From positions 682,001 to 746,000 of the forward strand of contig CAINNJ010000004.1 of NCBI GenBank assembly GCA_903851195.1: a DNA stretch of 64,000 nucleotides, read 5' to 3'. A model generated the notes under the pieces. That model did not search any database. It was not told where the DNA came from and was given only the letters and a program-made list of their open reading frames with translations. Shown here piece after piece: positions 21,398-60,006 of the stretch. Within the stretch, counting starts at the first letter, position 1, and each line of letters opens with the position of its first letter. The DNA is from an uncultured Acidobacteriia bacterium. GTDB lineage: Bacteria > Acidobacteriota > Terriglobia > Bryobacterales > Bryobacteraceae. A program made the position numbers and the translations under genes.

Positions 21398-22840
21398 GTG
21401 CCCGATGGCAGCCGTATTGTGAGGCGAGTACTGACCAGCATTTTGCGCGGCCTGGTGTGCCTTGGCGCATTGTTCGCCATCGTCGCGCTGAACTGGTGGG
21501 TGTTGCCGATCAACCCGACCACGGCGGCGCTGGCGATGTTGCTGCTGGTGCTGGCGGCAGCCACGAAGTGGGGGCTGGCCGAATCGATTTTCACTTCGAT
21601 GGCCGGCATGCTGATCTTCAATTTCTACTTCCTGCCGCCGATCGGCACCTTCACGATTGCCGATCCGCAGAACTGGGTGGCGCTTTCCGCGTTTCTGGTA
21701 ACCGCGACCACCGCCAGCCAGCTTTCGGCGAACGCCAGACAGCGCGCGGAAGACGCGCTGAGACGGAAGGCGGAGATTGAGAAGCTGTACGAACTGAGCC
21801 GGGTGCTGCTGATGGACGATGGCACGGATTCGGTGCGGCATTCCGTCCTGCGCGCCGGTCAGGTGCTGCAGTCCGGCGCGATTACGTTTTTCGACGCGGC
21901 TTCGAACGAGGTGTATGGCCTGGAAGCGGCCATGCAGGTCTCCGCCGGGGACATGGCGCGCGTGGCGGAAACGGGTGAGCCTCTGCTCAGCGCCGGGAAC
22001 AGCGTGGTTCCGGTGAAGATGGGGACGAACGTCATCGGCAGTCTGGCTACGGACACGGGGCGGCTGAGCGCGGCGGTGCGGGACTCGGTGGCCGGTTTGC
22101 TGGCGATCAACTACGAACGCGCGCGGGCGTTGCGGCGCGCGGCCGCGGCGGAACTGGCGCGACGCAACGAAGAGTTCAAGTCGTCTCTGCTGGACGGGCT
22201 GGCGCACGATCTGAAGACGCCTCTGACGGCGATTCGCACCTGTGTGACGCGGCTGATCGAGCTGCCGCCGCGCACCGAGGAGGTGCGGCAGGAACTGCTC
22301 AGCATCATCGATCAGGAGAGCATCCGGCTCCAGAAGACGATTACGGAAGCCGTGGAACTGGCGCGGATCGAATCGCGCGCGCTGCATCTGGAGTTGCAGG
22401 CGACGAGCGTGGCCGAGATTGTGGAACTCGCTCTGGGTGAAGTGCGGGATGAGAATCGCGCGCGTTATTCGGTGGAAGCGGCGGCCGACATCCACGTGAT
22501 GGCGGATGGCGGACTGCTGCGGCGGGCATTGCTGCAGATTCTGGAGAATGCGCGGAAGTATTCGCCGCCCGATTCGCCGATTCGTATCGAGGTGCGCGAA
22601 GAAGACGAAAGCGCCGTAATTACCGTGCTGGACAGTGGGCAGGGCGTTCCACCCGACGAACTGGACCGGATTTTCGAGAAGTTCTACCGGGGTCAGCGCC
22701 GTCGCGACGGGACGGACGGCACCGGCATGGGTCTGGCAATCGCGCGGGGTATTATCGAAGCACATGGCGGCAGAATTATGGCGGAGAATCGTGCCGGGGG
22801 CGGGCTGGCGGTGGTAGTTACTCTGCCACTTATTCCATGA
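21398..22840 (+). CDS. KdpD-type sensor histidine kinase lacking the KdpD N-terminal domain
   Basis: A 480-residue protein equal to the C-terminal half of KdpD. It starts directly with a DUF4118-like four-helix membrane region (about residues 10-105), then a GAF-like region, a dimerisation domain with GLAHDLKTPLTAIRT and an ATPase domain (ENARKYSPPDSP, DSGQGVPPDE, GTGMGLAIARG). The usual N-terminal nucleotide-binding and Usp modules are missing here but occur as separate genes at 28769-30868. It overlaps kdpE by four bases. The start is GTG 21398, with another GTG at 21419. Confidence 0.9.
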   Translation: MPDGSRIVRRVLTSILRGLVCLGALFAIVALNWWVLPINPTTAALAMLLLVLAAATKWGLAESIFTSMAGMLIFNFYFLPPIGTFTIADPQNWVALSAFLVTATTASQLSANARQRAEDALRRKAEIEKLYELSRVLLMDDGTDSVRHSVLRAGQVLQSGAITFFDAASNEVYGLEAAMQVSAGDMARVAETGEPLLSAGNSVVPVKMGTNVIGSLATDTGRLSAAVRDSVAGLLAINYERARALRRAAAAELARRNEEFKSSLLDGLAHDLKTPLTAIRTCVTRLIELPPRTEEVRQELLSIIDQESIRLQKTITEAVELARIESRALHLELQATSVAEIVELALGEVRDENRARYSVEAAADIHVMADGGLLRRALLQILENARKYSPPDSPIRIEVREEDESAVITVLDSGQGVPPDELDRIFEKFYRGQRRRDGTDGTGMGLAIARGIIEAHGGRIMAENRAGGGLAVVVTLPLIP

Positions 22841-28768: not shown

Positions 28769-29860
28769 ATGGCATCGAAAGAGTTCTGCAGACCGGATCC
28801 GGATCAGCTGCTGCGCCGGATTCAGACGGAGGAATCGGGGGCGGCGCGCGGGCGGCTCAAAATCTTTCTGGGGTACGCGCCGCGCGTCGGCAAGTCGATG
28901 CGGATGTTCGAGGAGGGTCTGCGGCGCATGCAGCGCGGCCAGGATGTGGTGGCCGGGGCGATCCAGCTGAGCGGGTCGCGTGAGCTGGAAGATGTGATGC
29001 ACAAGATCGAGTGCGTGCCGCCGCTGCGGGTCGGGGATGGCGAGAGTATGGACGTCGACGCCATTCTGGGGCGGGCGCCGCAGGTCTGCCTGATCGATGA
29101 ACTGGCGCGGGAGAATCCGGCGGGCAGCCGCCACGCGAACCGCTGGCAGGACGTGGAGGAACTCCGGGCAGCGGGCGTGAATGTCGTCGGCGCGATCAAC
29201 CTGCAGTACGTCTGTGAACAGCAGGATGCGGTGGAGCGCATCACGGGCAAGCGGGCGGCCAACAGCGTGCCGGCCGCGTTCGTCAAATCGGCGGATGAAC
29301 TGGTGATGGTGGATGTGCCGGCGGACGAAGTTTCGAGACACAGCCAGCGTGGCTCGCTACAGCCGGAACAACTCAGCCAATTGAGGGAACTGGCGCTGCT
29401 GTTCGCCGCCGAGGTCGTGGAAGAACAACTGCAGCGCTACATGGAGGAGCATGGCATCCGGCAAAGCTGGGGCACCCAGGAGCGGATTCTGGTGTGCATC
29501 ACGCCCCGGAGCAGCGCGCGGGCCATGCTGGACAGCGCGGCGCGGGCGACACAGCGCTTCCACGGGCAGATGTTCGTGGTGTATGTGAAGCAACCGGACC
29601 TGCTTCGGGAACAGGAAGAAACGCTGGAGGCCAATCTGCGGTACGCCAGGCAACTCGGCGCGGAGGTCCGCCTTCTGGAGGGCGCCGATCCGATCGCGAC
29701 GATCCTCGCCTTCGCGCGGGAAGAGCGCATGACGCAGTTGTTCATCGGCCATACGCAGCGCGCGAAGTGGAAGTTCTGGACGCCCGCGCCGGTCGACCGG
29801 TTGATTGCGGCGGCGGAAGGGATGGATGTTCGACTGTTTCCGCAGACGGCGGCAACCTAA
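28769..29860 (+). CDS. Stand-alone KdpD N-terminal/Usp protein, divergent copy
   Basis: A 363-residue protein with the KdpD N-terminal domain (residues 30-215) and a Usp-like domain (about 235-360) but no membrane region and no kinase. The P-loop reads GYAPRVGKSMRM where the family has GxAPGVGKT, and the family block DExAHTNxPGS is replaced by DELARENPAGSRHANRWQDV. It therefore looks like the less conserved of two tandem paralogues. It may modulate the separate kinase at 21398 or the pump; this is inferred from domain content and location. Confidence 0.85.
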   Translation: MASKEFCRPDPDQLLRRIQTEESGAARGRLKIFLGYAPRVGKSMRMFEEGLRRMQRGQDVVAGAIQLSGSRELEDVMHKIECVPPLRVGDGESMDVDAILGRAPQVCLIDELARENPAGSRHANRWQDVEELRAAGVNVVGAINLQYVCEQQDAVERITGKRAANSVPAAFVKSADELVMVDVPADEVSRHSQRGSLQPEQLSQLRELALLFAAEVVEEQLQRYMEEHGIRQSWGTQERILVCITPRSSARAMLDSAARATQRFHGQMFVVYVKQPDLLREQEETLEANLRYARQLGAEVRLLEGADPIATILAFAREERMTQLFIGHTQRAKWKFWTPAPVDRLIAAAEGMDVRLFPQTAAT

Positions 29861-29863
29861 GGC

Positions 29864-30868
29864 ATGTCAAAAGGGAAGCTGAAGGTCTTTCTGGGCTATG
29901 CGGCGGGCGTCGGCAAGACGTATCGGATGCTGCTGGAAGCCCGCCAACTCCTCGACCAGGGCCGGGACGTGGTGATCGGCTATTTCGAACCGCACGGGCG
30001 CAGGGATACCATCGCGCTGACCGCGGGGCTGGAGACGGTGCCGCGCAAGGTCTATGAACATCGGGGCTCCGTGTTCGAAGACATGGACACCGAAGCGGTG
30101 ATCGCGCGGCATCCGGAAGTGGCGGCGGTGGATGAGTTCGCGCACACCAACGTGCCGGGTTCGCCCCGCCTGAAGCGCTGGCAGGATGTGATGCTGCTGC
30201 TTCAGGCGGGCATCGACGTGCTGACCAGCCTGAACATCCAGCACATGGAAAGCCTGAACGATCAGGTCTGGCATGTGACCGGCATCCGGGTGCGCGAGAC
30301 GGTGCCCGACTGGATTCTGCAGGAAGCTTCCGAAGTCGTCATGGTGGACGTGACGCCGCGGGCTCTGCTGCATCGTCTGGAACGCGGCGTGGTTTACGCG
30401 CCGGAGAAGGCCCGGCAGGCGATGGACAACTTCTTCACGGAAGCCAATCTGAGCGCGCTGCGTGAACTGGCGCTGCGACAGACCGCGCACCAGATCGAAG
30501 AGAAGCGCGATGCGGCCGGCCGGGACCGGATCCTGCTGTGGCTCACGCCGCACCCTGCAGCGGCCATGCTGATCCGTCGCGGCAGGCGCGTGGCGGATTA
30601 TCTGAACTCGCCCTGCACCGCCGTCTTCGCGCAGCGGGATGAGGCCGCGATGGAGCCCTGGCTGAACGTCTGCCGCAACCTGCGCATCGACGCCAAAGCG
30701 ATTCCCTGCGGCGACCCGGCGCGCGATGTGGCCGACTACGCGCGGGCCCAGGGCGTGACACAGCTGTTCGTTTCGCGGAATACGCCGGAACTGGCCAGAC
30801 TGGTCAGCATGGCGCGGGACATGCAGGTGATCATCGTGGCGGAGCGGGTGCGGACGAATACCGCCTGA
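29864..30868 (+). CDS. Stand-alone KdpD N-terminal/Usp protein, intact copy
   Basis: A 334-residue paralogue of the preceding gene, three bases downstream. Motifs are canonical: Walker A GYAAGVGKTYRML, Walker B-type DEFAHTNVPGSPRLKRWQDV, SLNIQHMESLNDQV and RETVPDWILQEA. A Usp-like domain occupies the C-terminal third. In E. coli these modules form residues 1-370 of KdpD and sense the cell's state. Here they would have to act in trans on the kinase encoded upstream of kdpE. It is the last gene of the kdp cluster. Confidence 0.88.
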   Translation: MSKGKLKVFLGYAAGVGKTYRMLLEARQLLDQGRDVVIGYFEPHGRRDTIALTAGLETVPRKVYEHRGSVFEDMDTEAVIARHPEVAAVDEFAHTNVPGSPRLKRWQDVMLLLQAGIDVLTSLNIQHMESLNDQVWHVTGIRVRETVPDWILQEASEVVMVDVTPRALLHRLERGVVYAPEKARQAMDNFFTEANLSALRELALRQTAHQIEEKRDAAGRDRILLWLTPHPAAAMLIRRGRRVADYLNSPCTAVFAQRDEAAMEPWLNVCRNLRIDAKAIPCGDPARDVADYARAQGVTQLFVSRNTPELARLVSMARDMQVIIVAERVRTNTA

Positions 30869-47171: not shown

Positions 47172-47384
47172 ATGGAACTCCAACTCACCTGGATAGCGCT
47201 CGCGGCCAGTCTTCTGATGGCTCTGGGCGGAGCCTGCATGTTCATCTTCGCGGTCCGGAAAGATTACTTCCGCGATGTGGAAGAGGCGAAGTTTCATATG
47301 TTCTGGGCGGATCTCGAAGAGCCCGGCGAGCCCGCACGCGGGCAAAACACCGAAGAAGGGAATGGACGCGGAAATCCGCGATAA
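47172..47384 (+). CDS. ccoS: CcoS-like cbb3 oxidase assembly protein
   Basis: A 70-residue protein with one membrane helix ([20 protein letters not shown]) followed by [19 protein letters not shown]. This is the shape of CcoS, a small protein needed to insert cofactors into cbb3 oxidase. It is the first gene of the respiratory operon, six bases before the Rieske gene. A longer upstream frame has no support. A related small protein is encoded at 53025. Confidence 0.75.
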
Positions 47385-47389
47385 TCCGA

Positions 47390-47863
47390 ATGAATAATCA
47401 GAACATTTCTGAAAAATCCGGCAGTTCCAGACGAAGTCTCCTCACCTGGTTCAGCGGAGCCGCGCTCGCCGGTTCGGCCGCCATCAGCGCGCTGGCCAAC
47501 TTCGTTTTCATGAAGCCCCGCGCCACCTACGGGCAGCCGAGCCGGTATTCCATCGGACGGCCCGACGATTTCCCTTCCGGCACGCGCGTCTCGCTCGATC
47601 AGCGCCGCGTCTGCGTGGTCCGCGAAGGTTCGAAACTGGCCGTGATTTCCACCATCTGCACCCACCTCGGCTGCACCGTGGGCGTCTCGGACACCGGCTT
47701 CGCCTGCCCCTGCCACGGTTCACGCTATGACCAGGACGGGAACGTGGTGGGCGGACCCGCCCCGAAATCCCTCACCTGGTACCAGGTCTCTCTGGCTCCC
47801 AACGGCGATCTGGAAGTCGACACCAATAACGCGGTCAGCCAGGGCACCTATTACAACTTATGA
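47390..47863 (+). CDS. Rieske iron-sulfur protein of a bc-type complex
   Basis: A 157-residue protein. An N-terminal arginine pair precedes a membrane anchor ([20 protein letters not shown]). The 2Fe-2S site is complete: CTHLGC near residue 90 and CPCHGSRYD near residue 107. The Ser and Tyr next to the second motif match standard Rieske proteins. It accepts electrons from quinol at cytochrome b. It overlaps the next gene by four bases (ATGA). Confidence 0.93.
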
Positions 47864-49185
47864 GCAACCTTCCCGTTCAGGAGCCCCCGGCCGCCCCGCC
47901 GTCCGAAACCGGTGTTCCCAAACCGGGGCTCACCACCGCCCTCCTGCAGTTCCCCCGCAACCTCTGGGACTCGATCTTCCGCCATCCGCTGCCCGATTCC
48001 GACCTCGGCGCGGCCCAGACCTCCTTCAGCAACTTCTTCCTCCACATCCACCCGGTCAAGGTTCACCGCAACACGCTCCGGCCGCTCTACACGCTGGGCC
48101 TGGGAGTCATGTCGTTCGTGACCTTCGTGGTGCTCACCATCACGGGCATCCTGCTGATGTTCTATTACGTGCCCTCCACCACGCAGGCTTATGACCGCAT
48201 GCTCGATCTGCGCGGTTCGGTCGCGTTCGGCACCTTTCTGCGCAATCTGCACCGCTGGTCCGCGCACGCCATGGTGGCCATCGTGTTCCTGCACATGTGC
48301 CGCGTCTTCCTCACCGGCTCTTACAAACGGCCGCGGGAATTCAACTGGCTGATCGGCTGCGTGCTGCTGCTGCTCACTCTTTTCGCCAGTTTCACGGGCT
48401 ACCTGCTGCCATGGGATCAGCTGGCTTTCTGGGCCATCACGGTAGGCACCTCCATCGCGGCCTACGCGCCCCTGATCGGCAAGAAGATCCAGTTCCTGCT
48501 GCTCGGCGATCAGGCGGTCGGCCAGGAAGCGCTGCTGCGGTTCTACGTTCTCCATGTCGTCGTGCTGCCCGCGCTCATCACGCTGCTGGTCGCCATCCAC
48601 TTCTGGCGCATTCGCAAAGACGGCGGCCTTTCCCGCCCCGCCGAAGCGGATCTGCCCGCCGGCGGCCAACCGCTCCGCGTCGAGATCGTCTCCGGCCCGG
48701 CAGCCGGCAAGCGCACCTTTGGCCTGATGGGCTTTGTTCGCGGGCCTTTCACAAAAACCGGCAACGTGCCCGATAACTCCGTCTACGCCTGGCCGAATCT
48801 GCTGGTCGCCGAACTCTTCGTCTTCGTCGTCACCGTGGCGGCGCTGCTGGTGGTCTCGCTGCTCTTCAACGCGCCGCTCGAAGAACCGGTCAACGTGCTC
48901 CACCCGCCCAATCCCGCCAAGGCGCCCTGGTACTTCCTCGGGCTGCAGGAACTGGTCAGTTACTCGGCCTTCTGGGGCGGCGTCGGCGTGCCCGGCATTG
49001 AAGTCGCGCTGCTGATGCTGGTGCCCTATATCGACCGCAAAGTCTCGGGCGTCGGCAAATGGTTCGCGAAGGAGCGCTTCCTGGCGAACACGCTCTTCAT
49101 CACTTTTGCGCTGCTGAACGTGATCTTCATCATTATCGGCACGTTCTTCCGTGGCCCCAACTGGGCCATGGTGAGTCCCTTCTGA
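47860..49185 (+). CDS. Cytochrome b of a bc-type complex, fused form
   Basis: A 441-residue protein with about eight membrane helices, joining cytochrome b6-like and subunit IV-like parts. Four heme histidines are visible in [18 protein letters not shown] and [20 protein letters not shown] followed by HFW. The quinol-site motif reads [12 protein letters not shown], so APWY stands where PEWY is found in standard bc1 proteins. A long N-terminal part (about 65 residues) and a loop rich in Gly/Ala near residue 270 are unusual. It oxidises quinol and passes electrons to the Rieske protein and hemes b. Confidence 0.93.
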
Positions 49186-49192
49186 GGATGCT

Positions 49193-51046
49193 ATGAAACT
49201 GGCTCTCGCAATCGCAAGCGCAATCATCCTGATCATTCACGGAATCGTCTTTTACGACCAGTTCTTCCACCAGTGGGAGCGGCACCAGACCGCTTATTTC
49301 GACCAGGCCCGCACCCAGGCCCGCAATGACGCCGAGCGCGCCGAACTGGCCGGCCGCAGTCCGAAGATCGAACAGATCATCGTCACGCAGTTCGGCGAAA
49401 ATCGAGTGGACCGCTGTAGCACCTGTCACCTCGCCATCGACGATCCCCGCTTCAAAGACCACTTCGAACCTCTGAAGACGCACCCCTACTCCGCCGCCCT
49501 CGGCGACGTGCAGCGCAACGGCCACTGGGAACGCCGCCATAAGTTCAACGATTTCGGCTGCACGGTCTGTCACGATGGCCAGGGCCGCGGCCTCGAAGCC
49601 GCCTATGCCCACGGCGAAGACGAGCACTGGAACGACCCCCTCACCGGCTACATCACGCAGGCCGCCTGGCGCAAAGACTTCCAGCCCCACCTGAAGGGCA
49701 AAGAATACATGGAAGCCAACTGCGCCCAGTGCCATACCGAAGAAAACTTCGCCGGCACGCCTCACGTGAACCGCGGCCGCCAGTTGTTCTTCCAGACCAA
49801 CTGCTATGGCTGCCATAAGATCGACGGACTCTCCGAAGGCACGCTGGCGCCGGAACTGACCGAAGCCGGCCACAAATTCAAGATCGATTACCTCTGGGAA
49901 TCCATCGTGGAGCCCCGCGCCAATCTCGCCACCTCGTTCATGCCGAAATTCAACCTGAACGATGAGGACGTGAAGAGCCTGGTGATCTTCCTCAAGAGCC
50001 GCCGCGGCGTGAATTACGCCGAAACCTCGCTGGCCCGCTACCGCGCTAAACTGAGCCCGGCCAAAGCGGAAATCACACCCGAAGCCGCGCTCGGCCTGGC
50101 CGCCAAAACGCCTTCGGCACGCGCCGCCGATCTGGCCAGCCAGGGCAAACAACTCTTCGAAGACCGCGCCTGCGCGGCCTGCCACAAACTCGGCGACAAG
50201 GACGGCGGCATCGCCCCCGACCTCAGCTTCGAGGGCAGCCTGAAAGACGAGGAATGGCTGCGCGAACACTTCCGCACGCCGCGCTCCCGCGTGCCCGATT
50301 CCATCATGCCGGCCTTCCGCTTCAGCGACGCCGATTTCGCCGCGCTCACGGCCTACCTCGAAAGCGGACACCCGCCGCAGAACCTTCCTTCGGACGGCGC
50401 GGAGATCTTCAAAACCCTCTGTTCGCGCTGCCACGGCGAAAAGGGCGACGGCCTCGGCAAGACGGCATTCTATCTCGACCCGGCGCCCCGCGACCTCACC
50501 AAAGTCGCCTTCATGAACAGCAAGCCGGAAGAGCGTTTCCTGCGCTCCATCAAAGACGGCGTGCCGGGAACGTCCATGCCGGCCTGGGGCAAAGTCCTCT
50601 CGGAGGCGCAGACCCAAACCGTGCTGCGCTACGTCAAAACGGCCTTCGTCAAAGAGCCGCAGCGCGCGCTGAAGGAACACACCAATGTCCCGGCCGCGAA
50701 TCCAAACCCGTCTTCCCGCGACTCCATCGCGCAGGGTGAACGCTTGTTCCTGCAGCGGTGTGCCGGCTGCCACGGCCTCAAAGCCGACGGCAAAGGCCCC
50801 AACTCCATCGATATCGTGCCGCGGCCACGCAATCTGCGCAATCGCTGGTTCGTGAACAACCTCAGCGATCACCGCGCGCTCGCCTCCATCCTCTACGGCG
50901 TTCAGGGCACGGCCATGCCGTCGTGGATCGATTACGGCTTCACCATGAAGGACGCCGGCGACCTGCTGAATTACATCCGCAGCCTGAATCCGGCCCCGCG
51001 CCCCGCCGACAAACAGCTCGCTTCACTCACGTCAGGAACTCACTAA
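49193..51046 (+). CDS. Membrane-anchored heptaheme c-type cytochrome
   Basis: A 617-residue protein with an uncleaved-looking N-terminal helix ([17 protein letters not shown]) and seven CxxCH sites: CSTCH 75, CTVCH 123, CAQCH 177, CYGCH 204, CAACH 327, CSRCH 410 and CAGCH 523. The first four lie close together, the last three are in separate class I-type domains with methionines such as SIMPAF, TSMPAW and TAMPSW as likely ligands. Its gene lies between cytochrome b and CcoN. It probably links the bc complex to the oxidase and may replace cytochrome c1 and CcoP; this role is inferred. Confidence 0.9.
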
Positions 51047-52452
51047 TGGAAGAACAACTGGTAATCGAATCGACGCACGCCGGGACAAGGACGGTCACCC
51101 CTACCCTCCACCGGGACGCCACCGCGAAGTGGTTTCTCATCAGTTCCGTCTCGTACTTCTTCATCGTCGGCATGATCGCGCTGGCGATCGCGGCCAAGTT
51201 CGTCTGGCCGGAACTGCTGGGCACCGTCTCCATCCTGACTTACGGGCGCCTGCGTCCCCTCCACGTCAACGGCATGCTGTTCGGCTGGCTGCTGGCGTGC
51301 GACATGGGGCTGACATTCTACTTCGTGCCGCGCCTTTGCGGGGTCCGGCTCTGGAGCGAAAAGCTCGGCCTGGCCACGGCGGGACTCTGGAATGTCATCA
51401 TCCTCGGCGCGGTGGTCGAACTGCTCGCCGGGCACAATCAGGGTCTGGAATACGCGGAACTGCCCATGTGGCTCGACATCCTGGTCGTCATCGCGTGGGT
51501 GATGTACGGGACCAACATTCTGATGACCGTGGCGACCCGCAAATACCAGCAGATGTACGTCTCGCTCTGGTACACCATGGGCACCATCCTGTGGACGCCC
51601 TTCGTCTATCTCACCGGCAACTTCGCCACGCTCTTCGCCACCGGCGTCAACCAGGCGAATCTCAACTGGATGTACGTGCACAACGCGGTCGGGCTCATCT
51701 TCACGCCGGTGGGCCTCGCCATCGCGTATTACTTCATCCCGCGCGCCAGCAACGCGCCGCTGCACAGCCACCGCCTCTCCATGATCGGCTTCTGGTCGCT
51801 TGCCTTCGTCTATGTCTGGACGGGCGCGCACCACATGCTGCACGGGCCCATCTCGCAGTGGCTGCAAACCATCGCGATCGCCTTCTCGGTCATGCTGCTG
51901 ATTCCGGTCTGGACCGTCGTTTATAACTTCTTCGCCACCATGAAAGGCCAGTGGCAACTGGTGCGCGAGAACGTCTCCCTGAAGTTCCTCATGTCCGGCG
52001 TCGTGTTCTACCTGCTCACCTGCTTCCAGGGACCCATGCACAGCCTGCGCACCGTGAACGCCATCGTCTCGAAGACGGACTGGATTCCCGGCCACGCGCA
52101 CATGGCGCTGCTGGGCGGCTTCAGCTTCTTCGCCATCGCCGGCACTTACTATGTGCTGCCGCGCATTTACAACACGAAGCTCTACTCCGACACCCTGGCC
52201 AACTGGAGTTACTGGCTCTTCATGATCGGCGGACTCGGCTTCTTCGTCTGCCTCTGGCTGGGCGGCTTCTGGCAGGGCTGGCAGTGGAATAACCCGTCCA
52301 TCCCCTTCATCGACACCGTGACGGCTCTGAAGCCCATCTGGATGGTGCGCTTCTTCTCCGGCGTGCTCATGTTCGCGGGCATCACGGCGTTCCTCTATAA
52401 CTTCATGGCCACCATTCTGTATGCCGGCGCGGAGAACGAAACCCATGCTTAA
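51046..52452 (+). CDS. ccoN: cbb3-type cytochrome c oxidase subunit I (CcoN)
   Basis: A 468-residue subunit with about twelve membrane helices. Heme and copper histidines are seen in RPLHVNGMLFGW, WMYVHNAVGLIF, TGAHHMLHGP and DWIPGHAHMALLGG. It reduces oxygen to water at a heme b3-copper site, with high oxygen affinity in this family. The ATG at 51046 overlaps the TAA of the heptaheme gene by one base; the longer frame upstream is an overlap shadow. The end overlaps ccoO by eight bases. Confidence 0.95.
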   Translation: MEEQLVIESTHAGTRTVTPTLHRDATAKWFLISSVSYFFIVGMIALAIAAKFVWPELLGTVSILTYGRLRPLHVNGMLFGWLLACDMGLTFYFVPRLCGVRLWSEKLGLATAGLWNVIILGAVVELLAGHNQGLEYAELPMWLDILVVIAWVMYGTNILMTVATRKYQQMYVSLWYTMGTILWTPFVYLTGNFATLFATGVNQANLNWMYVHNAVGLIFTPVGLAIAYYFIPRASNAPLHSHRLSMIGFWSLAFVYVWTGAHHMLHGPISQWLQTIAIAFSVMLLIPVWTVVYNFFATMKGQWQLVRENVSLKFLMSGVVFYLLTCFQGPMHSLRTVNAIVSKTDWIPGHAHMALLGGFSFFAIAGTYYVLPRIYNTKLYSDTLANWSYWLFMIGGLGFFVCLWLGGFWQGWQWNNPSIPFIDTVTALKPIWMVRFFSGVLMFAGITAFLYNFMATILYAGAENETHA

Positions 52453-53014
52453 GAAAATCGATCTCGACGCGCGCCTCTTCGTCGGCGCCGCGCTGGCTCT
52501 CTTCTTCATCGGCGGCACGCTCACCACCGTGATGCCGCCGCTCATCGATAAGAGCTGGGGTAAGCCGTTTGAAAACTCCGACCCCTCCAAAGGGCCCACC
52601 GGCAAGCTGTTGCCTTACACCGCGCAGGAGAAGAAAGGCCTCGCCATCTATACCCGGGAAGGCTGCTGGTACTGCCATACGCAGCAGACGCGAACCCTGC
52701 TGGCCGATACCAAACGCTCGGGCTGGCGCGGCGTCGACGCACCCGTCTCCACTCCGGACGAGTTCGTCTACGACTCCCCGCACATGTTCGGCACCAAGCG
52801 CACCGGCCCCGATCTCTCGCACGTCGGCGGCAAATACGACGCGCAGTGGCACCGCACCCACTTCCGCAATCCCCGCGATCTGGTGCCCGGCTCCATCATG
52901 CCGCCCTTCCCCTGGATCGCCAATAACGAAGAAGAATTCCAGGCCCTGGTCGCTTATCTGCAGCGCCTCGGACGCGCCAAGAACTGGCGTCCCGATAACG
53001 ACTACGAAAAGTAA
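52445..53014 (+). CDS. ccoO: cbb3-type cytochrome c oxidase subunit II (CcoO)
   Basis: A 189-residue subunit with an N-terminal anchor (FVGAALALFFIGGTL) and one heme site, CWYCHTQQTRTL, at residue 74. GTKRTGPDLSHVGGKY and PGSIMPPFPWI carry the likely methionine ligand. It takes electrons from a cytochrome c domain and passes them to CcoN. The spacing and length fit known CcoO proteins. It overlaps ccoN by eight bases. Confidence 0.95.
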   Translation: MLKKIDLDARLFVGAALALFFIGGTLTTVMPPLIDKSWGKPFENSDPSKGPTGKLLPYTAQEKKGLAIYTREGCWYCHTQQTRTLLADTKRSGWRGVDAPVSTPDEFVYDSPHMFGTKRTGPDLSHVGGKYDAQWHRTHFRNPRDLVPGSIMPPFPWIANNEEEFQALVAYLQRLGRAKNWRPDNDYEK

Positions 53015-53024
53015 GAGGAAAACT

Positions 53025-53213
53025 ATGGACTATACCTATCCCAGCATTTTCTTTTCTTACTTCATCTTTTTTCTGTTCCTTGCCGGCGGGATTTTCTTCT
53101 GCATTCGCAGCCTGAAACGCGGCTACTGGACGCGGGACGCCGAAGACGTGAAGTACCAGGTATTCAACGATTCGTTCGAGGAAAGCGAGGCCACCCATGG
53201 TCGCCGGAACTAA
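53025..53213 (+). CDS. Small CcoS/CcoQ-like membrane protein
   Basis: A 62-residue protein with one helix (IFFSYFIFFLFLAGGIFFCI) followed by RSLKRGYWTRDAEDVKYQVF. The second part matches the pattern of the CcoS-like protein at 47172 (aromatic pair, acidic cluster, then Lys-aromatic and an F(x)D segment). It occupies the position of CcoQ, between ccoO and the next subunit gene. AAGAGGAAA lies before the ATG. It overlaps the next gene by 17 bases. Confidence 0.65.
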   Translation: MDYTYPSIFFSYFIFFLFLAGGIFFCIRSLKRGYWTRDAEDVKYQVFNDSFEESEATHGRRN

Positions 53214-53511
53214 AACGCAAACCGAGCAGCCCGACGTGCACGAAATCGCGGGCGGCTGGATTACGGAGAAAAAGGGCACGGAAGTTCCTCCGTTCCTCCG
53301 CGTCGCCTATGTCGTGATCGCCAGCTGCTGCGTCGCCTATCTCATCCTCTTCATGTACGGCGAAGTGGGCCATGCCGAACGCGGACCCCTGGTGAAACAG
53401 CTGAACATGACCACCATGACTTCGGAACCACTGATGTACGGAGTGGCCGCCATGGCCGCGCTCTTCTTCGTCGGCGTCTCGGTCTTTGCCGCGCAAAAAG
53501 GGAAGGAATAA
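53197..53511 (+). CDS. Heme-less CcoP-like membrane protein
   Basis: A 104-residue protein with two membrane segments (about residues 34-55 and 78-97). The segment VPPFLRVAYVVIASCCVAYLI resembles the N-terminal helix region of CcoP, but no CxxCH is present. CcoP normally follows ccoO and carries two hemes. This gene sits in that place, so it may be the CcoP membrane part whose heme domains are supplied by the heptaheme cytochrome. That is an inference; it could also be an unrelated assembly protein. Confidence 0.6.
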   Translation: MVAGTKTQTEQPDVHEIAGGWITEKKGTEVPPFLRVAYVVIASCCVAYLILFMYGEVGHAERGPLVKQLNMTTMTSEPLMYGVAAMAALFFVGVSVFAAQKGKE

Positions 53512-53526
53512 CGGCCCGGGGGCGTC

Positions 53527-55482
53527 ATGACTCAATCCCTGCTCTCCCCGCTCACCGATTCGCTGGTGCAGATCCAGCCGCCCGACGCCACTGCCTACTG
53601 GATGAAGCAGGTCAAGTGCCGCGACGCCTGCCCCGTTCACACGGATGCCTGCGGCTACGTCACCGCGATTGCCGGCGGCGAGTATGAACGCGCCTACAGC
53701 ATCGCGCGGGCGACCAACCCGTTCGCCTCCATCTGCGGACGCGTCTGCGGCGCGCCGTGCGAAGCGGCCTGCCGCCGCGGCGCGGTGGATGCGCCGGTCT
53801 CCATCCGCGCGCTCAAGCGCTATGTGACCGACAAGTACGGCCCCGAAACCGGCGACTTCACCGCCCACCGCGCCGGCTGCAATGAAAAAATGTTGCCGCC
53901 CGGCCGCGGCGATTTCGAGCGTATCGCCGTCATCGGCGCGGGCGTCTCCGGCCTGACCGTCGCGCACGATCTGGCGCGCATCGGCTACAAAGTCACGGTC
54001 TTCGAAGCCTACTCGCAACCGGGCGGCATGCTCACCGTCGGGGTGCCCGTGTTCCGTCTGCCCCGCGACCTGGTGCAGTGGGAAATTCAGGCCATTCAGT
54101 CGCTCGGCGTCGAGATCCGCTGCAACCAGGCGCTCGGCCGCGACTTCACCATCGCCCAACTGCGCAAAGAGGGTTTCGCGGCGATTTTTCTGGGCGTCGG
54201 TCTGCCCAAAGGCCGCCGCCTCCCGATCCCCGGAGCGGACCTCGCCAACGTCTACGACGGCCTCGACTTCCTCCGCTCCTTCAACGAAGGCAATCCCATG
54301 CCGCTCGGGCGCCGCATCGGGGTCATCGGCGGCGGCAATGTCGCTTATGATGTGGCCCGTTCCGCCATCCGCCCCGTCCGTGCCGATGCCACCGGCGAAG
54401 AGACCAGCGAAGAGATGGCGCGCGGCGAAAAGACCGCCTACGACATCGCCCGCACCGCTCTCCGCATGAGCGGCGACAAACAGGTGCACGTCTTCTGTCT
54501 CGAAAGCCGCGAGCAAATGCCGGCCGACCTCCGTGAAGTGGAGGAAGGCGAAGAAGAAGGCATCTGGCTGCATAACAACGCCGGGCCGAAGGAGATCCTC
54601 GGCCGCGACGGCAAGACCACCGCTCTGCGCACCGTCAAGTGCCTTTCCGTCTTCGACACCGAAGGCCGCTTCAATCCCACTTTCGATGAAACGCAGTTGC
54701 AGGATGTCGAACTCGACACCATCCTCTTTGCCATCGGCCAATCCTCCGACCTGTCCTTCCTCAGCCCCGAAGACGGCGTGGAAACCCACCGCGGCCTCAT
54801 CAAAGTAAATCCGGAAACCTACGGCACGTCCGCGCCGGATGTCTTCGCCTGCGGCGATATCGCGCACGGGCCCAAGCTCTTCATCAATGCCGTGGCGTCC
54901 GCGCAGATCGCCGCGCGCTCCATGCATGATTTCCTTCGCTCCACCCGGACGGAGGTCGTCGTCCGCAAGCAGTGGCATCCCGCCGCTTACACCATGGCCG
55001 AGGACTGGCATCGCCTCATCCGCCATGAGCCGCCGGTGATCGACGCCGGGCGCCGCGCCGCCTCCATCGACATCGTGGAGGAAAGTTACTCCGAACAGGA
55101 AGCGCAGCGCCAGGCCTCGCGCTGCCTGCGCTGCAATGTCAACACGGTCTTCGATACCTCCCTCTGCATCGGCTGCAACGGCTGCGTGGACGTCTGTCCG
55201 CAGAGTCTGATCCGCCTGCTCGGCCTCAGCAGTCTGGTGCTCGACGATCAATGGTCGCAGGAGATCGCCGCCAACCTCGGCGTCACCATCGCGCAGTTGC
55301 GCCGCATGCCGGCCGCCGAACTGGACCAGATGGGCGCCATCATGACCAAGGACGAATCCACCTGCATCCGCTGCGCTCTGTGCGCCTCGCGCTGCCCCAC
55401 GCATGCCATCACCATGCAGCGCTTCGAGTACACCACCGAATGCGTGAGCTACGGGCTTGCTTCCTACGGAGCCGCGTCGTGA
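53527..55482 (+). CDS. GltD-like FAD/NAD(P) oxidoreductase with C-terminal 4Fe-4S domain
   Basis: A 651-residue flavoprotein. The N-terminus has a GltD-type cysteine set (CRDACPVHTDAC, CGRVCGAPCEAAC). FAD binds at VIGAGVSGLTVAHDLAR near residue 140, with FEAYSQPGGML, and NAD(P) at GVIGGGNVAYDVARSA near residue 265. The last part has two ferredoxin motifs, CIGCNGCVDVCP and CIRCALCASRCP. Relatives are the small subunit of glutamate synthase and similar electron-splitting enzymes, but no large subunit is near. Its place inside the oxidase operon suggests it moves electrons between NAD(P)H, ferredoxin and the respiratory chain; this is inferred. Confidence 0.85.
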   Translation: MTQSLLSPLTDSLVQIQPPDATAYWMKQVKCRDACPVHTDACGYVTAIAGGEYERAYSIARATNPFASICGRVCGAPCEAACRRGAVDAPVSIRALKRYVTDKYGPETGDFTAHRAGCNEKMLPPGRGDFERIAVIGAGVSGLTVAHDLARIGYKVTVFEAYSQPGGMLTVGVPVFRLPRDLVQWEIQAIQSLGVEIRCNQALGRDFTIAQLRKEGFAAIFLGVGLPKGRRLPIPGADLANVYDGLDFLRSFNEGNPMPLGRRIGVIGGGNVAYDVARSAIRPVRADATGEETSEEMARGEKTAYDIARTALRMSGDKQVHVFCLESREQMPADLREVEEGEEEGIWLHNNAGPKEILGRDGKTTALRTVKCLSVFDTEGRFNPTFDETQLQDVELDTILFAIGQSSDLSFLSPEDGVETHRGLIKVNPETYGTSAPDVFACGDIAHGPKLFINAVASAQIAARSMHDFLRSTRTEVVVRKQWHPAAYTMAEDWHRLIRHEPPVIDAGRRAASIDIVEESYSEQEAQRQASRCLRCNVNTVFDTSLCIGCNGCVDVCPQSLIRLLGLSSLVLDDQWSQEIAANLGVTIAQLRRMPAAELDQMGAIMTKDESTCIRCALCASRCPTHAITMQRFEYTTECVSYGLASYGAAS

Positions 55483-56174
55483 CCCCCGCGCTGCCCGTGA
55501 CCATGTTTCTGCTTGGTCTCGCCGGCAGCCTGCACTGCGTGCAGATGTGCGGACCCCTCGTCCTCAGCTTCAGCCTGACCTCCCGACAGCCCGCGGCGCA
55601 CGCGGCCTATCATGCGGGCCGTATTCTCACCTACGCGCTGCTGGGCGCGCTCGCGGGCTGGACCGGCTCCGGTCTCACCCTTGCCGGCTCCCTGGCCGGA
55701 CTGCAGAATACGGCGGCGGTGGTGGGCGGAATCTGCATGATCGTCGCCGCGCTGCTGCTGGGGACCGCGGCGTCCGGCCGGAGCCTGATCCGGATCGGCG
55801 CGCCTTCCCGCTTCAGTGTGTTCGCGGGAAGACTGCTGCGCAACGCTTCCCTGCGCGGCCGCTTCGCCACCGGCCTGGCAATGGGCCTGCTCCCCTGCGG
55901 CATGATCTACGCGGCGCTGCTGCGTTCGGTCGCGGCCGCGTCGGCAACCTCCGGCGCCGTCGCGATGCTTGCCTTCGGCCTGGGCACGGCCGGCCCGTTG
56001 TTCGGCCTGAGTCTGATCTCCACGCCGGTCAACCGCTGGCTTGGCGTCCGCGGACCGAACTGGGCCGCCGCGGGCATCGCGTTGATGGGCGCGGTCCTGA
56101 TCTGGCGCGGCCTCCTGCCACCCGCTCCACACCAGCACCATCTGAATCGCGAAATCCATGTCAGCTCCCGTTAA
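55479..56174 (+). CDS. TauE/SafE-family membrane protein in oxidase operon
   Basis: A 231-residue protein with about six membrane helices. Its N-terminus (FLLGLAGSLHCVQMCGPLVL) has the GSxHCxxMCG motif of the subgroup found with cbb3 oxidases. Such proteins are thought to help copper supply or oxidase assembly. The GTG at 55479 overlaps the upstream TGA (GTGA); an ATG eight codons later is also possible. It overlaps ccoG by 17 bases. Confidence 0.85.
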   Translation: MTPALPVTMFLLGLAGSLHCVQMCGPLVLSFSLTSRQPAAHAAYHAGRILTYALLGALAGWTGSGLTLAGSLAGLQNTAAVVGGICMIVAALLLGTAASGRSLIRIGAPSRFSVFAGRLLRNASLRGRFATGLAMGLLPCGMIYAALLRSVAAASATSGAVAMLAFGLGTAGPLFGLSLISTPVNRWLGVRGPNWAAAGIALMGAVLIWRGLLPPAPHQHHLNREIHVSSR

Positions 56175-57486
56175 AATCGCCCCCGCCGCCGCTGTCCCCG
56201 CCCCGCCCGCGCGCCCCCATCACGTGCGCCGCCGCCGCATCCACCTGTTCTTCTTCCTCGTCTTCTGCGCCCTCCCGTTCTTCAACCTGATGCGCTTCGA
56301 TCTGCCGAAGCAGCGCTTCTACTTCGCCGGCGCGGAGATCTGGATCAACGAGTTCGCCATCATCTTCTTCTCCCTCATGTTTCTGATGTTCGGCATCGTC
56401 GCGCTCAGCATGATCTACGGCCGCGTCTACTGCAGCTATGCCTGCCCGCAGATGATCTTCAGCGAAACCGCCCTCGCGCTCGACGATGCCCTGCGCCGCT
56501 GGACCACCAAGAAATTCATCGCCTGGCCCGCCCCGCGCCGCCGCTTCGCGCACTTGGCCCTGACCTACCTCATCATCGCGGCCGCGTCCGTGGTCCTGGC
56601 CTTCGTCTTCATCTCGTATTTCGTCGAGCCACGAGACCTGCTCCGCCGCCTCATCCATCTCGATATCGCCACCTCCGGCGGCTTCGCGGGCGCGGTCACC
56701 ACGCTCATCGCCTTTCTCGATTTCGCTTTCGTCCGCCAGAAATTCTGCACCACGCTCTGCCCGTACGGCTACCTGCAGGGCATGCTGGCCGACCGCCACA
56801 CGCTTCTGGTCCAGTACCGCGATCCCGACCATCTCTGCATCCAGTGCAAGAAATGCGTGCGGATTTGCCACATGGGCATCGACATCCGCGACTCGCCCTA
56901 CCAGATCGAGTGCATCCATTGCGGCGAGTGCATCGACGCCTGCGAAGAAATCATGACGAAGGTCAAGCGCCCCACGGTAGTCGAGTATTCGTGGGGACAG
57001 GACGGTCCGAAACTGGAAGCGGAAGCCGGCAAGCCCTGGTGGTACCGGCTCGGTATCCGCGATGCCAAACGCCGCATCGTGCTGCTGGTCATGCTCTGTT
57101 ACGCAAGCGGTCTGGCCGTCGCGCTCTCCATGCGCAACCCCGTGCTGGTGCGCATCAATCCCATCCGCACCACCAGCCTCTATCGCGTGAATGCGGCAGG
57201 TGAAGTGGAAAACCAGTTCTCCGTCTCCGTCTCGAACCGCGGCTCGCAAAATGCGAAGGTCGCGATCGCCGTGGACAGCCTGCAGGGCGCCCGCGTGGAA
57301 GAACTGCCGAATCCGCTTTCCGTTGCGCCGGGAGAAACCACAAGAAAAGACTTCGCCGTCGCCGTTCCGCGCGGCGCGGCCCTGGGCGACGTCACCCACT
57401 TCCATTTCCAGGTGGAAGCGCAGCCGGGCGGCCGCAAACAAACCATCGACATGACCTGGCTGATGCCACCGAAAACGAAAAGGTAA
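56158..57486 (+). CDS. ccoG: cbb3 oxidase accessory protein CcoG
   Basis: A 442-residue membrane ferredoxin-like protein (FixG/RdxA). It has an N-terminal helix region, CSYACPQMIF near residue 92, CTTLCPYGYLQG, and two 4Fe-4S motifs CIQCKKCVRICHMG and CIHCGECIDACEE. The C-terminal Ig-like domain (EVENQFSVSVSNRGSQN) is also typical. CcoG reduces copper for insertion into cbb3 oxidase. It overlaps the upstream gene by 17 bases; a 47-residue protein gene follows after two bases. Confidence 0.94.
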   Translation: MSAPVKIAPAAAVPAPPARPHHVRRRRIHLFFFLVFCALPFFNLMRFDLPKQRFYFAGAEIWINEFAIIFFSLMFLMFGIVALSMIYGRVYCSYACPQMIFSETALALDDALRRWTTKKFIAWPAPRRRFAHLALTYLIIAAASVVLAFVFISYFVEPRDLLRRLIHLDIATSGGFAGAVTTLIAFLDFAFVRQKFCTTLCPYGYLQGMLADRHTLLVQYRDPDHLCIQCKKCVRICHMGIDIRDSPYQIECIHCGECIDACEEIMTKVKRPTVVEYSWGQDGPKLEAEAGKPWWYRLGIRDAKRRIVLLVMLCYASGLAVALSMRNPVLVRINPIRTTSLYRVNAAGEVENQFSVSVSNRGSQNAKVAIAVDSLQGARVEELPNPLSVAPGETTRKDFAVAVPRGAALGDVTHFHFQVEAQPGGRKQTIDMTWLMPPKTKR

Positions 57487-57488
57487 AT

Positions 57489-57632
57489 ATGAACTTCAAA
57501 GTCCTGCTGGGCGGCGTGATGAGCCTCTTTGTCACCATCCTGATCGTCTGTTACTTCATCGCGAAACAGGCGAACCCCGTGTTTCTCGACGACCACGGCC
57601 GCCCCGCCAGCCAGGCCCGTCAGAGCTACTGA
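57489..57632 (+). CDS. 47-residue membrane protein between ccoG and ccoI
   Basis: The frame encodes one helix (FKVLLGGVMSLFVTILIVCY) and a soluble tail (ANPVFLDDHGRPASQARQSY). It is in the place where FixH/CcoH is usually found, between ccoG and ccoI, but is much shorter than FixH and has no further domain. It may be a reduced CcoH. It is two bases after ccoG and one base before ccoI, so it is certainly in the operon. Confidence 0.65.
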   Translation: MNFKVLLGGVMSLFVTILIVCYFIAKQANPVFLDDHGRPASQARQSY

Positions 57633-57633
57633 A

Positions 57634-60006
57634 ATGACCGCCACCGCGCCTCCGCCGCTCCGCCAGGAATTCGGACACGAATGCGCGCTCTGCACCCAGC
57701 CCTGTCCGGCCGATGACACCTTCTGCTGCATGGGCTGCCGCAACGTCTACACCATCCTGCAGGAGAGCGGCGCCATCGTGGAAGGCGCGGACCCGCGCGA
57801 TTCCGAACTCTTCCGCCGCAGCCTTGCCCTCGGCCTGGTCTCCAACGCGCCGCGCCCGCCCGCGCCCGGCGCGATCCCCGCCTCGGCACTGGTCGAAGAG
57901 AAGCTCTTTCACGTCTCCGGCATGTGGTGCGGCGCCTGCGGCTGGCTCATCGAACACGTCCTCGCCAAAGAACCCGCCGTTCGCCAGGCCGAAGTCTTCT
58001 TCACCTCGGACCTGCTCCGCATCCGCTATTGCCCGCAATACCTGCCGGTCAGCCGGCTCGAAGAAAATCTCGGCCGCCTCGGCTACCAGATCCGCCTCCA
58101 CAGCGGAGAGGCCGCCGATCAATCCGCCGACCGCCGCCGGGAACTGCTGCGCCTGGGCATCGCGGCCTTCCTGTGGCTGAATGTCATGACGCTGAACCTC
58201 TCCGTCTATCTGGGCGGCGGTCTGCAGCACTTCCTGCCGTTCCTGGTCATGGCGCTCGCCACGCCCGTGGTCTTCTTCTCCGGACAGACCATTCTGCGCC
58301 TCGCCTGGAGCGGCCTTCGGCAGGGCATCGCCCGCATGGAAACCCTGCTCTCCATCGGCATCCTGGCCGCTTATGGCTACAGCGCCGCCGAAACGTTTCT
58401 CGGCGGCAACCACCTCTATTTCGATATCGCCTGCGCCATCGTGACTCTGGTGCTGCTTGGCCGATATCTGGAGCGCAACGCGAAAGAGGCCACCAGCCGC
58501 GCGATCACCGGTCTCTACTCCATGCTCCCCGTCAAAGCCCGCGTGCTGGAAAACGGCCGGGAGCGCTTCCTCGCCATCGACGCTCTCGCGCCCGGCGACA
58601 CCTTCCTGGTCCGAACCGGTGAGCGCATTCCCGCCGATGGCATCGTGGTCGCGGGCGAGTCCGACGTCGATGAAAGCATTCTCACCGGCGAGTCGCGCCC
58701 CGTGTCCCGCCGCGCGGGCGACAACGTCACCGGCGGCAGCCTCAATACCAGCGGCGTGCTCGAAGTCCGCGTCACCGCCGTCGGCGACAACAGCGTGCTC
58801 GCACAGATTCTTCGGTCGGTCGAAGCCGCTCTCAGCCGCCGCTCCGATATCGAACGCGTGGCCGACAAGGTCTCCCGCATCTTCGTGCCCGGCGTGATCG
58901 CCCTTGCCGCGCTCACCGCGCTCCTGCTGATCCTGACCGGCGTGCATCCCGCCGAAGCCCTGCTGCGCGCCATCACCGTCCTGGTCATCGCCTGCCCCTG
59001 CGCGCTTGGCATCGCCACGCCCATGGCGATCACGGCGGCCATTGGGGCGGCTTCCCGCCGCGGCATTCTCATCTCGAACCCGCGCGCTCTCGAAACCGTG
59101 CAGCGCGTCGACACCGTGCTTCTCGATAAGACCGGCACCGTGACCGAAGGCCGCTTCACGCTGCTCGAATACGATCCCGCCCACCTGCCGCTGCTCGCCT
59201 CCCTCGAAATCTTCTCCGAACATCCTCTGGCCAAAGCCGTGGTGGATCTGGCGGGCGACATGTCCCCGGCCACGAACGTGGAAATCCGCAAAGGCCGGGG
59301 CATTCTCGGCAATTCCGCCGGAATGGAAATCTTTTGCGGGAATCGCGCGCTGCTCGCCGAACTCGGCGTCGCGCCCGATCCGCAACTCGACGCCCGCGCC
59401 CGCGCGGCCGAAGCCCGCGGCAGCACCGTCGCGTTTTATGGCTGGGACCGCCGCCTCGCCGGCATCCTCGTCTTCGGCGACCGCATCCGCCACGACGCCT
59501 CCGCGCTCGTCGCGGACCTGCGGCAACGCGGCATCGCTGTGATAGTGGTCTCGGGCGACGCCGCGGGCACGGTTCGCCACGTCTCCGAAACCATCGGCGC
59601 CGACGAGTGGTTCGCCGAAGTTCTCCCCGAAGCGAAACAGAGCGTCGTCGAAAAACTGCAGGCCCGCGGCAAGCGCGTCGTCATGCTGGGCGATGGCGTC
59701 AACGACGGCCCGGCGCTCGCCCAGGCCGACCTCGGCATCGCCATGGGCTCCGGCGCCGGCCTCGCCATGAAAGCCTCCAGCGTGGTCCTGATGACCGGGC
59801 AACTCGACCGCGTCACCGAAGTCTTCGACCTCGCCCGCCGCACGCTGCGCATCATCCGCCAGAATTTATTCTGGGCGTTCTTCTACAACATCGCGGGCGT
59901 GAGCCTCGCCGTGATGGGCCGCCTGAATCCCATCGTCGCCGCCGGCGCCATGGTTTCCTCCAGCCTGATCGTGGCCTGGAACTCCTCCCGCCTGCGTCGG
60001 ACTTAG
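57634..60006 (+). CDS. ccoI: Copper-translocating P-type ATPase CcoI (FixI)
   Basis: A 790-residue P1B ATPase. A cysteine-rich N-terminus (CALCTQPCPADDTFCCMGC) precedes a heavy-metal domain with GMWCGACGWL near residue 95. CPCALGIATP is in the ion-binding helix; ILTGESRPVS, LLDKTGTVTEG, FSEHPLAKAV and MLGDGVNDGPALAQ complete the catalytic set. CcoI exports copper to the oxidase assembly site. It ends the respiratory operon and is convergent with the sortilin-like gene, with eight bases between them. Confidence 0.95.
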   Translation: MTATAPPPLRQEFGHECALCTQPCPADDTFCCMGCRNVYTILQESGAIVEGADPRDSELFRRSLALGLVSNAPRPPAPGAIPASALVEEKLFHVSGMWCGACGWLIEHVLAKEPAVRQAEVFFTSDLLRIRYCPQYLPVSRLEENLGRLGYQIRLHSGEAADQSADRRRELLRLGIAAFLWLNVMTLNLSVYLGGGLQHFLPFLVMALATPVVFFSGQTILRLAWSGLRQGIARMETLLSIGILAAYGYSAAETFLGGNHLYFDIACAIVTLVLLGRYLERNAKEATSRAITGLYSMLPVKARVLENGRERFLAIDALAPGDTFLVRTGERIPADGIVVAGESDVDESILTGESRPVSRRAGDNVTGGSLNTSGVLEVRVTAVGDNSVLAQILRSVEAALSRRSDIERVADKVSRIFVPGVIALAALTALLLILTGVHPAEALLRAITVLVIACPCALGIATPMAITAAIGAASRRGILISNPRALETVQRVDTVLLDKTGTVTEGRFTLLEYDPAHLPLLASLEIFSEHPLAKAVVDLAGDMSPATNVEIRKGRGILGNSAGMEIFCGNRALLAELGVAPDPQLDARARAAEARGSTVAFYGWDRRLAGILVFGDRIRHDASALVADLRQRGIAVIVVSGDAAGTVRHVSETIGADEWFAEVLPEAKQSVVEKLQARGKRVVMLGDGVNDGPALAQADLGIAMGSGAGLAMKASSVVLMTGQLDRVTEVFDLARRTLRIIRQNLFWAFFYNIAGVSLAVMGRLNPIVAAGAMVSSSLIVAWNSSRLRRT

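Follow-up and report, generated by a model that had tools for sequence, protein, structure and literature searches.

Gene content of the respiratory block

The window analysed here is a 64,000-nucleotide stretch of the genome of an uncultured bacterium of the Acidobacteriota (Bryobacteraceae; assembly GCA_903851195.1, contig CAINNJ010000004.1, positions 682,001 to 746,000). It carries on its + strand a block of respiratory genes in which a Rieske protein and a cytochrome b are followed by a cytochrome c with seven heme-binding motifs (the heptaheme cytochrome) and by the CcoN and CcoO subunits of a cbb3-type oxidase. Genes were read from the sequence and assigned to families with Pfam and NCBIfam profiles. 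The preliminary description of this DNA had reported these five genes as adjacent and partly overlapping, which we could confirm; from the FixS-like gene that opens the block to a GltD-like gene beyond the oxidase, neighbouring genes overlap or are separated by at most 15 bases.

The block's bc side begins with the Rieske [2Fe-2S] protein (47390–47863; Pfam Rieske expect value (E) 6e-14, over cut-off), whose CTHLGC and CPCHGS motifs are invariant in 80/80 homologues. The cytochrome b that overlaps it (47860–49185; Pfam E 5e-44, over cut-off) combines the b6 and subunit-IV parts in a single chain; its candidate heme ligands H131, H145, H232 and H247, together with an 11-residue stretch, are invariant in 73/73 sequences, and its Qo motif reads APWY, not PEWY. 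The parts of a Rieske/cytochrome b complex, namely a Rieske protein and a cytochrome b with two conserved His pairs and a Qo motif, are all in place. The heptaheme cytochrome c (49193–51046; seven CxxCH) follows, with a predicted N-terminal helix (residues 2–41) ahead of its heme domains.

On the oxidase side, the catalytic subunit CcoN (51046–52452) matched COX1 at E 6e-92, over cut-off, and the NCBIfam ccoN equivalog at E 2.8e-93, where its 313 of 583 bits fall below the cut-off. The monoheme subunit CcoO (52445–53014) matched FixO over cut-off (E 5e-39) and the NCBIfam ccoO equivalog strongly, below that model's own cut-off; its CxxCH and M152 are conserved in 80/80 homologues. In CcoN, H212, H262, H263, Tyr256, H350 and H352 are present in 82/82 homologues and H73 in 81/82. 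By P. stutzeri numbering, by spacing and by eye, we take these residues to include the three CuB His, the heme His and the cross-link Tyr of a C-family active site. Throughout the family, the Rieske protein, cytochrome b, CcoO and CcoN retain their catalytic residues. An identity as nitric oxide (NO) reductase was set aside, the active-site residues of CcoN being canonical.

Anatomy of the heptaheme cytochrome

We aligned 96 rows of heptaheme homologues (the window and loci L050–L149, with a 60% coverage filter), which reduce to 84 distinct sequences. Exactly seven CxxCH motifs occur in 81 of the 84 and are therefore not a product of chance; two of the other three (L090 and L149) have an undetermined residue at the break, and the third (L069) is a natural split. 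Counted over the rows without X, each of the seven heme His is conserved in at least 81/82, as are the Met at positions 250, 372, 462 and 575 and additional His at 97, 116, 140 and 359; the last two hemes are absent from the L069 row. M250 and M372 are found in 82/82, M462 and M575 in 81/82. Likewise present in 82/82 are H97, H116 and H140 of the three-heme part, which are probably the second ligands of hemes 1–3 and would make these bis-His.

Profile comparison placed hemes 4 and 5 in one sister pair (49754–50380, candidate ligands M250 and M372) and hemes 6 and 7 in another (50381–50998, candidate ligands M462 and M575), behind the three-heme part with its extra invariant His (49325–49762). 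In hhalign comparisons the 4–5 pair scored 124.6 against the diheme tail of a cytochrome b–c fusion from the same genome, over the length of the tail, versus 79.3 against CcoP, and the 6–7 pair scored 122.6 against the CcoP diheme region, with the domains in order, versus 37.9 against the b–c fusion diheme. No bc, CcoO or CcoP profile that we tried scored above 34 against the part with hemes 1–3. Profile searches of the PDB returned CcoP chains that each cover part of the C-terminal region (8smr_G, E 1e-10, residues 428–591; 3mk7_C, E 2e-10, residues 390–477) and matched residues 334–374 to CcoO. Residues 340–596, with the last three hemes of the chain, match three-CxxCH CcoO-type subunits encoded on Sinorhizobium plasmids in the same order (E ~1e-11), and residues 303–598 align with a Paraburkholderia subunit annotated as CcoO (E 3e-15). 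An AlphaFold2 model of the protein (mean predicted local distance difference test score, pLDDT, 70.6, with low confidence over hemes 1–3) retrieved mostly general cytochromes c in Foldseek, with the Kuenenia chain 6h5l_B as best match, and was used as support only. Together, these sequence comparisons suggest that the heptaheme cytochrome has three parts: three hemes with extra His, a pair resembling those of the bc fusion and CcoO, and a CcoP-like pair. In one genome, G062, the cytochrome is encoded as separate pentaheme and diheme proteins within the block, and the diheme gene adjoins ccoN.

A heme-free membrane protein in the ccoP position

A 104-amino-acid (aa) membrane protein (53197–53511) occupies the position that ccoP holds in annotated ccoNOQP operons. 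None of its 74 distinct homologues contains a CxxCH motif, and its AlphaFold2 model, of low confidence (pLDDT 67.5), has two long helices (32–55 and 77–103) and one short one. In Sinorhizobium, the gene for the three-heme CcoO-type subunit is followed by one for a homologous protein of 79–80 aa (E 7e-8). When its profile was compared by hhalign with the CcoP N-terminus and with 122 membrane decoys, it scored 24.2 against CcoP (E 6e-4) and at most 20.5 against the decoys; with other anchors added, the scores were 26.0 (E 2.7e-4) and at most 20.4. One Sinorhizobium anchor gave a weak FixP_N match (E 0.13). From its position and the profile comparison, the 104-aa protein is probably the anchor of CcoP without its hemes.

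Only one of the 21 phylum genomes with a heptaheme cytochrome, G062, has a FixP_N match: a 92-aa heme-free protein from a different cbb3 operon (2.4e-6, over cut-off). That operon (L211) lies behind genes for an NrfD-like membrane protein and a 5-CxxCH cytochrome, which by eye resemble alternative complex III (ACIII), and also encodes a two-CxxCH CcoO. With heme-free anchors here, in Sinorhizobium and in G062, CcoP-like anchors without hemes therefore seem to recur where the CcoP hemes have moved elsewhere.

CcoP and cytochrome c1 in the host genome

cbb3 oxidases normally contain a diheme CcoP, and bc1 complexes a cytochrome c1. We searched the host genome (7.72 Mb, 67 contigs, 99.66% complete) for both families, each with a working Caulobacter control, and obtained no match to FixP_N and none to Cytochrom_C1 (PF02167), so a ccoP gene elsewhere in the genome was set aside. 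The preliminary description had held that CcoP and c1 are both absent. Genome-wide this stands for the two families, and a search for separate genes, which it had proposed, returned none; what it overlooked is the probable heme-free anchor. The lacking piece is thus probably the heme-bearing part of CcoP, its anchor being kept in the usual place. Neither the single protein that unites FixP_N anchor and hemes in a canonical cbb3 oxidase nor the cytochrome c1 of a bc1 complex proper was found, so neither name should be applied to the system unqualified. The same genome has three COX1 and two Cytochrome_B matches; a 15-CxxCH cytochrome (L028, 454–1992) lies ~4–5 kb from the second cytochrome b.

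Conservation across the Acidobacteriota

We surveyed 297 sampled genomes of the phylum and fetched 20 stretches. The heptaheme cytochrome occurs in 21 of the 297: the host, 18 genomes at 61–69% identity, one at 46%, and one with the split form, which matches at 43% identity over the first 406 residues. In a separate search, CcoN of at least 59% identity was confined to the same 21 genomes, the next-best CcoN having 42%. Mapped by tblastn, the order Rieske, cytochrome b, heptaheme, ccoN, ccoO, 104-aa homologue, GltD is kept in 19/20 phylum loci; the exception is L069, where GltD lies upstream. ccoG comes next in 17 of those 19, and the remaining two stretches end before it.

A wider set of relatives, of which 80 of 112 were kept, came from a search with a single-phylum alignment and two peptide patterns. 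Wherever the record had room, the Rieske and cytochrome b genes lie upstream of the heptaheme gene (68/68) and ccoN and ccoO downstream (63/63), and the 104-aa homologue is downstream in 62 of those 63. Record titles name groups of Acidobacteriota (Bryobacterales/Solibacter, Holophagaceae/Geothrix, Pyrinomonadaceae, Blastocatellia, Vicinamibacteria, Acidobacteriaceae and others) with one exception, titled Bacillota (L092), whose contig is as long as one from G292, a genome that falls in the window's phylum. Because the two locus sets overlap, with several records listed twice under different names, totals over both are not independent; distinct proteins were counted separately. The gene order thus recurs among acidobacterial genomes, a check that the preliminary description had called for, and an assembly artefact was set aside with the same order in many separate assemblies. 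Carriers of the block include bacteria from soil and sediment.

Five further cbb3 loci of the phylum (L211–L215) were read as context, and some are built differently. L213 (G097), L214 (G182) and L215 (G115) carry, in order, ccoN, a two-CxxCH CcoO-like gene, a diheme cytochrome, a Rieske-like gene and cytochrome b; the Rieske gene was matched by tblastn in L213 only and recognised by position and look in L214 and L215. G097 has this neighbourhood besides a heptaheme operon. Among 18 loci with an acidobacterial CcoP that bears FixP_N (L157–L174), the nine translated, with the gene on the + strand, all encode a CcoP with a single CxxCH (L157, L161, L162, L164, L165 and L167–L170). Several CcoN of FixP_N-CcoP genomes lie in frames of 700–890 aa, which suggests CcoN–CcoO fusions.

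Accessory and neighbouring genes

The block opens with a small FixS/CcoS-like membrane protein (47172–47384, + strand like all that follow; FixS E 0.003, below the curated cut-off). Tblastn detects a homologue ahead of the Rieske gene in 19/20 other loci of the phylum, and the remaining one (L068) has, by eye, a short FixS-like frame at this place. Between CcoO and the 104-aa protein lies a small CcoQ/FixS-like membrane protein (53025–53213) without significant Pfam or NCBIfam match, whose homologue occupies the same place in 18/20 phylum loci (tblastn). Next comes a GltD-like FAD/NAD(P) oxidoreductase with 4Fe-4S (ferredoxin) domains by Pfam (53527–55482), present in 20/20 phylum loci by tblastn; our guess is that it may donate electrons to CcoG for copper reduction. 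A DsbD_2-type membrane protein (55503–56174, start codon approximate; Pfam DsbD_2 E 1.7e-34), possibly an oxidase biogenesis factor, is inconstant, lying between GltD and ccoG in 7 of the 17 phylum loci where these two genes occur in order.

CcoG (56158–57486; TIGR02745 E 6.6e-71, below the curated cut-off) is followed, after 147 bases, by a CcoI-like copper P-type ATPase (57634–60006; copper P-type ATPase models over cut-off, with an HMA domain). The earlier placement of ccoG and ccoI downstream of CcoO was borne out, with four further genes lying between. Cco maturation genes thus accompany the oxidase (ccoG, ccoI and the ccoS-like gene), those for CcoG and the FixS-like protein scoring below curated cut-offs. 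Elsewhere in the window, two tandem proteins with a KdpD sensor domain (28769–30868), in which no kinase domain was found, lie behind genes that by eye are kdpABC-like, and a DUF4118 histidine kinase (21398–22840) is followed by a response-regulator-like gene.

Comparison with known systems

In the actinobacterial bcc-aa3 supercomplex, a multiheme c subunit bridges complexes III and IV without a free carrier; there the oxidase is of the A type and the c subunit is diheme, not heptaheme. Chains of these complexes (PDB 6adq and 7q21) were weak Foldseek matches to the heptaheme model.

The bc1–cbb3 supercomplex of Pseudomonas aeruginosa reportedly contains a separate c1 and a full CcoP, unlike the heptaheme operon. 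It resembles the system described here in joining bc1 with cbb3, by the titles of its entries (PDB 8smr and 8snh), and in that its CcoP matches hemes 6–7. The best PDB profile match to hemes 6–7 is a different protein, the Kuenenia diheme 6h5l_B, which by its entry title is the partner of an HAO-like protein and not part of an oxidase.

Engineered cytochrome c1–CcoP fusions in R. capsulatus yielded functional bc1–cbb3 supercomplexes, in which complex III and cbb3 are likewise joined through a fused c-type cytochrome, and a variant extended by a cytochrome cy domain showed quinol (QH2):O2 activity without added carrier (PMC7876108). That fusion is man-made and joins c1 to an intact CcoP on the inner side of the membrane, whereas the heptaheme cytochrome is natural, a single chain with three more hemes, and probably has its CcoP anchor as a separate protein. 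These engineered constructs show that such an arrangement is workable; they do not show that the heptaheme operon works in this way.

Superoperons that unite complexes III and IV, as here, and whose products have been suggested to form supercomplexes are known from Acidobacteriota as bc1–caa3 and ACIII–caa3 (Trojan et al. 2021, PMC8407424). These have caa3 oxidases; the cbb3 operon of that article, for A. capsulatus, is described as ccoN, ccoO and one cco gene of unknown function, and its accessible part describes no heptaheme. Sinorhizobium plasmid cbb3 loci (L151 and L152) share with the heptaheme operon the apparent move of CcoP hemes to another subunit, with a homologous heme-free protein next to it, and differ in that the hemes would have moved onto CcoO; tblastn at E 1e-5 found no Rieske or cytochrome b match in the 15 kb covered. 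In the portion of the literature searched we found neither a published heptaheme operon nor a naturally occurring protein that fuses bc-side to CcoP-side hemes and leaves an anchor behind; Ducluzeau et al. 2008 and the work of Nitschke and Baymann on the variety of Rieske/cytochrome b complexes may mention such clusters. We rate the system as a cbb3-containing III–IV system with a putative single-chain linker.

Interpretation and alternatives

We consider it likely, with appreciable room for doubt, that the product of the block is a dedicated quinol:O2 oxidoreductase, with a single cytochrome c subunit common to its Rieske/cytochrome b complex and its cbb3 oxidase. It is best read as a III–IV unit whose bc-side and CcoP-side cytochromes form one polypeptide, the natural counterpart of the engineered c1–CcoP fusion. 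Quinol would be oxidized at cytochrome b, and one electron would pass from the Rieske centre to the three-heme part and hemes 4–5 of the heptaheme cytochrome, along it to the CcoP-type pair of hemes 6–7, and from there through the CcoO heme to CcoN, where O2 would be reduced. CcoP itself would have been taken apart, its heme head added to the C-terminus of the bc cytochrome and its anchor left beside CcoNO as a separate heme-free protein. We infer the physical assembly, the electron path and the independence from soluble cytochrome c from the genes.

Several observations weigh against this interpretation. Class-I cytochrome c domains are not uniquely assignable, and our assignments are scores within one superfamily: the pair of hemes 5–6 also scores 126.3 against CcoP (hhalign), hemes 4 and 5 taken singly favour CcoO (81 and 111) over the b–c fusion domains (at most 63 and 93) and over CcoP, and residues 391–595 match the Kuenenia diheme (1.5e-18) ahead of CcoP in the PDB profile search. 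The b–c fusion profile, moreover, is a single sequence. In the split form of G062 the cytochrome b is split as well, and the first domain of the diheme protein is closest to heme 7 (158), while the second resembles hemes 6 and 7 alike (123 and 122); the split is therefore not a plain break between hemes 5 and 6. Homology of the anchor to FixP_N is modest, with a highest probability of 42%; the 25 Pfam families shown, out of 32 in all, for the 104-aa protein and 19 relatives do not include FixP_N, and the Sinorhizobium anchors by themselves score 18.2 against the CcoP N-terminus, where their best decoy reaches 19.7. One locus (L139) has no 104-aa homologue, GltD, ccoG or ccoI downstream, other genes beginning after ~13990. 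Trees of the two halves of the block largely agree, though no better than with the neighbouring GltD or CcoG, and therefore speak for joint inheritance, not for contact. The host has other respiratory equipment, including by eye a caa3-type oxidase beside an apparent ACIII and a further A-type oxidase elsewhere, as well as the second cytochrome b, whose two-CxxCH (diheme) tail is in the same chain. Finally, the carrier-free activity of the engineered R. capsulatus complexes was reported for the cy-domain version and not for c1–CcoP alone, in the accessible part of PMC7876108. The proposal of the preliminary description that the heptaheme protein does both jobs, that of CcoP and that of c1, is partly supported, by the CcoP-like hemes 6–7, the b–c-fusion-like hemes 4–5, the one split genome and the failure to find ccoP or c1 in the host genome, but the domain assignment is not unique.

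An alternative is that the block encodes two complexes tied by co-transcription alone, with the heptaheme as the c subunit of the bc complex reducing a mobile cytochrome c that feeds CcoNO directly through CcoO. We regard this as unlikely. In its favour, the host has at least 86 Cytochrome_CBB3 matches, most in large frames and some in short ones of 121–157 aa (150 of 177 candidates scored), which also count against the shared-subunit interpretation; and PMC8407424 terms CcoNO the minimal functional core and reports complex III–IV superoperons in several acidobacterial strains. Co-transcription alone, however, leaves unexplained why a CcoP-like diheme should sit inside the bc cytochrome, why the latter co-occurs one-to-one in our sample with one CcoN subtype, and why a heme-free membrane protein is conserved alongside.

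Still less probable, in our view, is a heptaheme that acts as a branching hub, its hemes 1–3 serving other periplasmic or extracellular partners with O2 reduction as one exit among others. The three-heme part, with its low scores against all bc, CcoO and CcoP profiles tried and its extra invariant His, differs from a plain c1–CcoP fusion, and a heptaheme is encoded in one record labelled Geothrix (L101), a genus of metal reducers. Yet the oxidase genes lie downstream in every one of the 63 loci with room, and no other constant periplasmic partner was noticed in a mapping that covered the window's own genes. Some C-family enzymes reduce NO, which would suit a unit that serves mainly NO reduction or O2 detoxification and not respiration, as would the A. 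capsulatus cbb3 operon, transcribed at a low level at 10 µM O2 and down-regulated below that (PMC8407424), although its described make-up is ccoN, ccoO and one other cco gene. The CuB-ligand and cross-link Tyr positions, by the roles we assign them, are nonetheless invariant in 82/82 CcoN, as in O2-reducing cbb3 enzymes, and we hold this last explanation to be very improbable.

Implications for respiration in the Acidobacteriota

Returning to the shared cytochrome c subunit, its fullest form goes further, and we advance it tentatively, at slightly less than an even chance: that in Acidobacteriota CcoP has been dismantled, with the anchor kept and the diheme head built into the bc cytochrome, that a seven-heme wire (three bis-His, four His-Met) runs from the Rieske protein to CcoO, and that complexes III and IV necessarily form a single machine. 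Whether III–IV supercomplexes serve a kinetic purpose is contested, since the two complexes can as a rule operate via free cytochrome c as well. If our interpretation is true, a link made of a single polypeptide would close this escape route, and the kinetic question would become testable in cultivable Acidobacteriota. It would also mean that cbb3 oxidases have evolved by shifting heme heads between subunits while their membrane anchors were retained.

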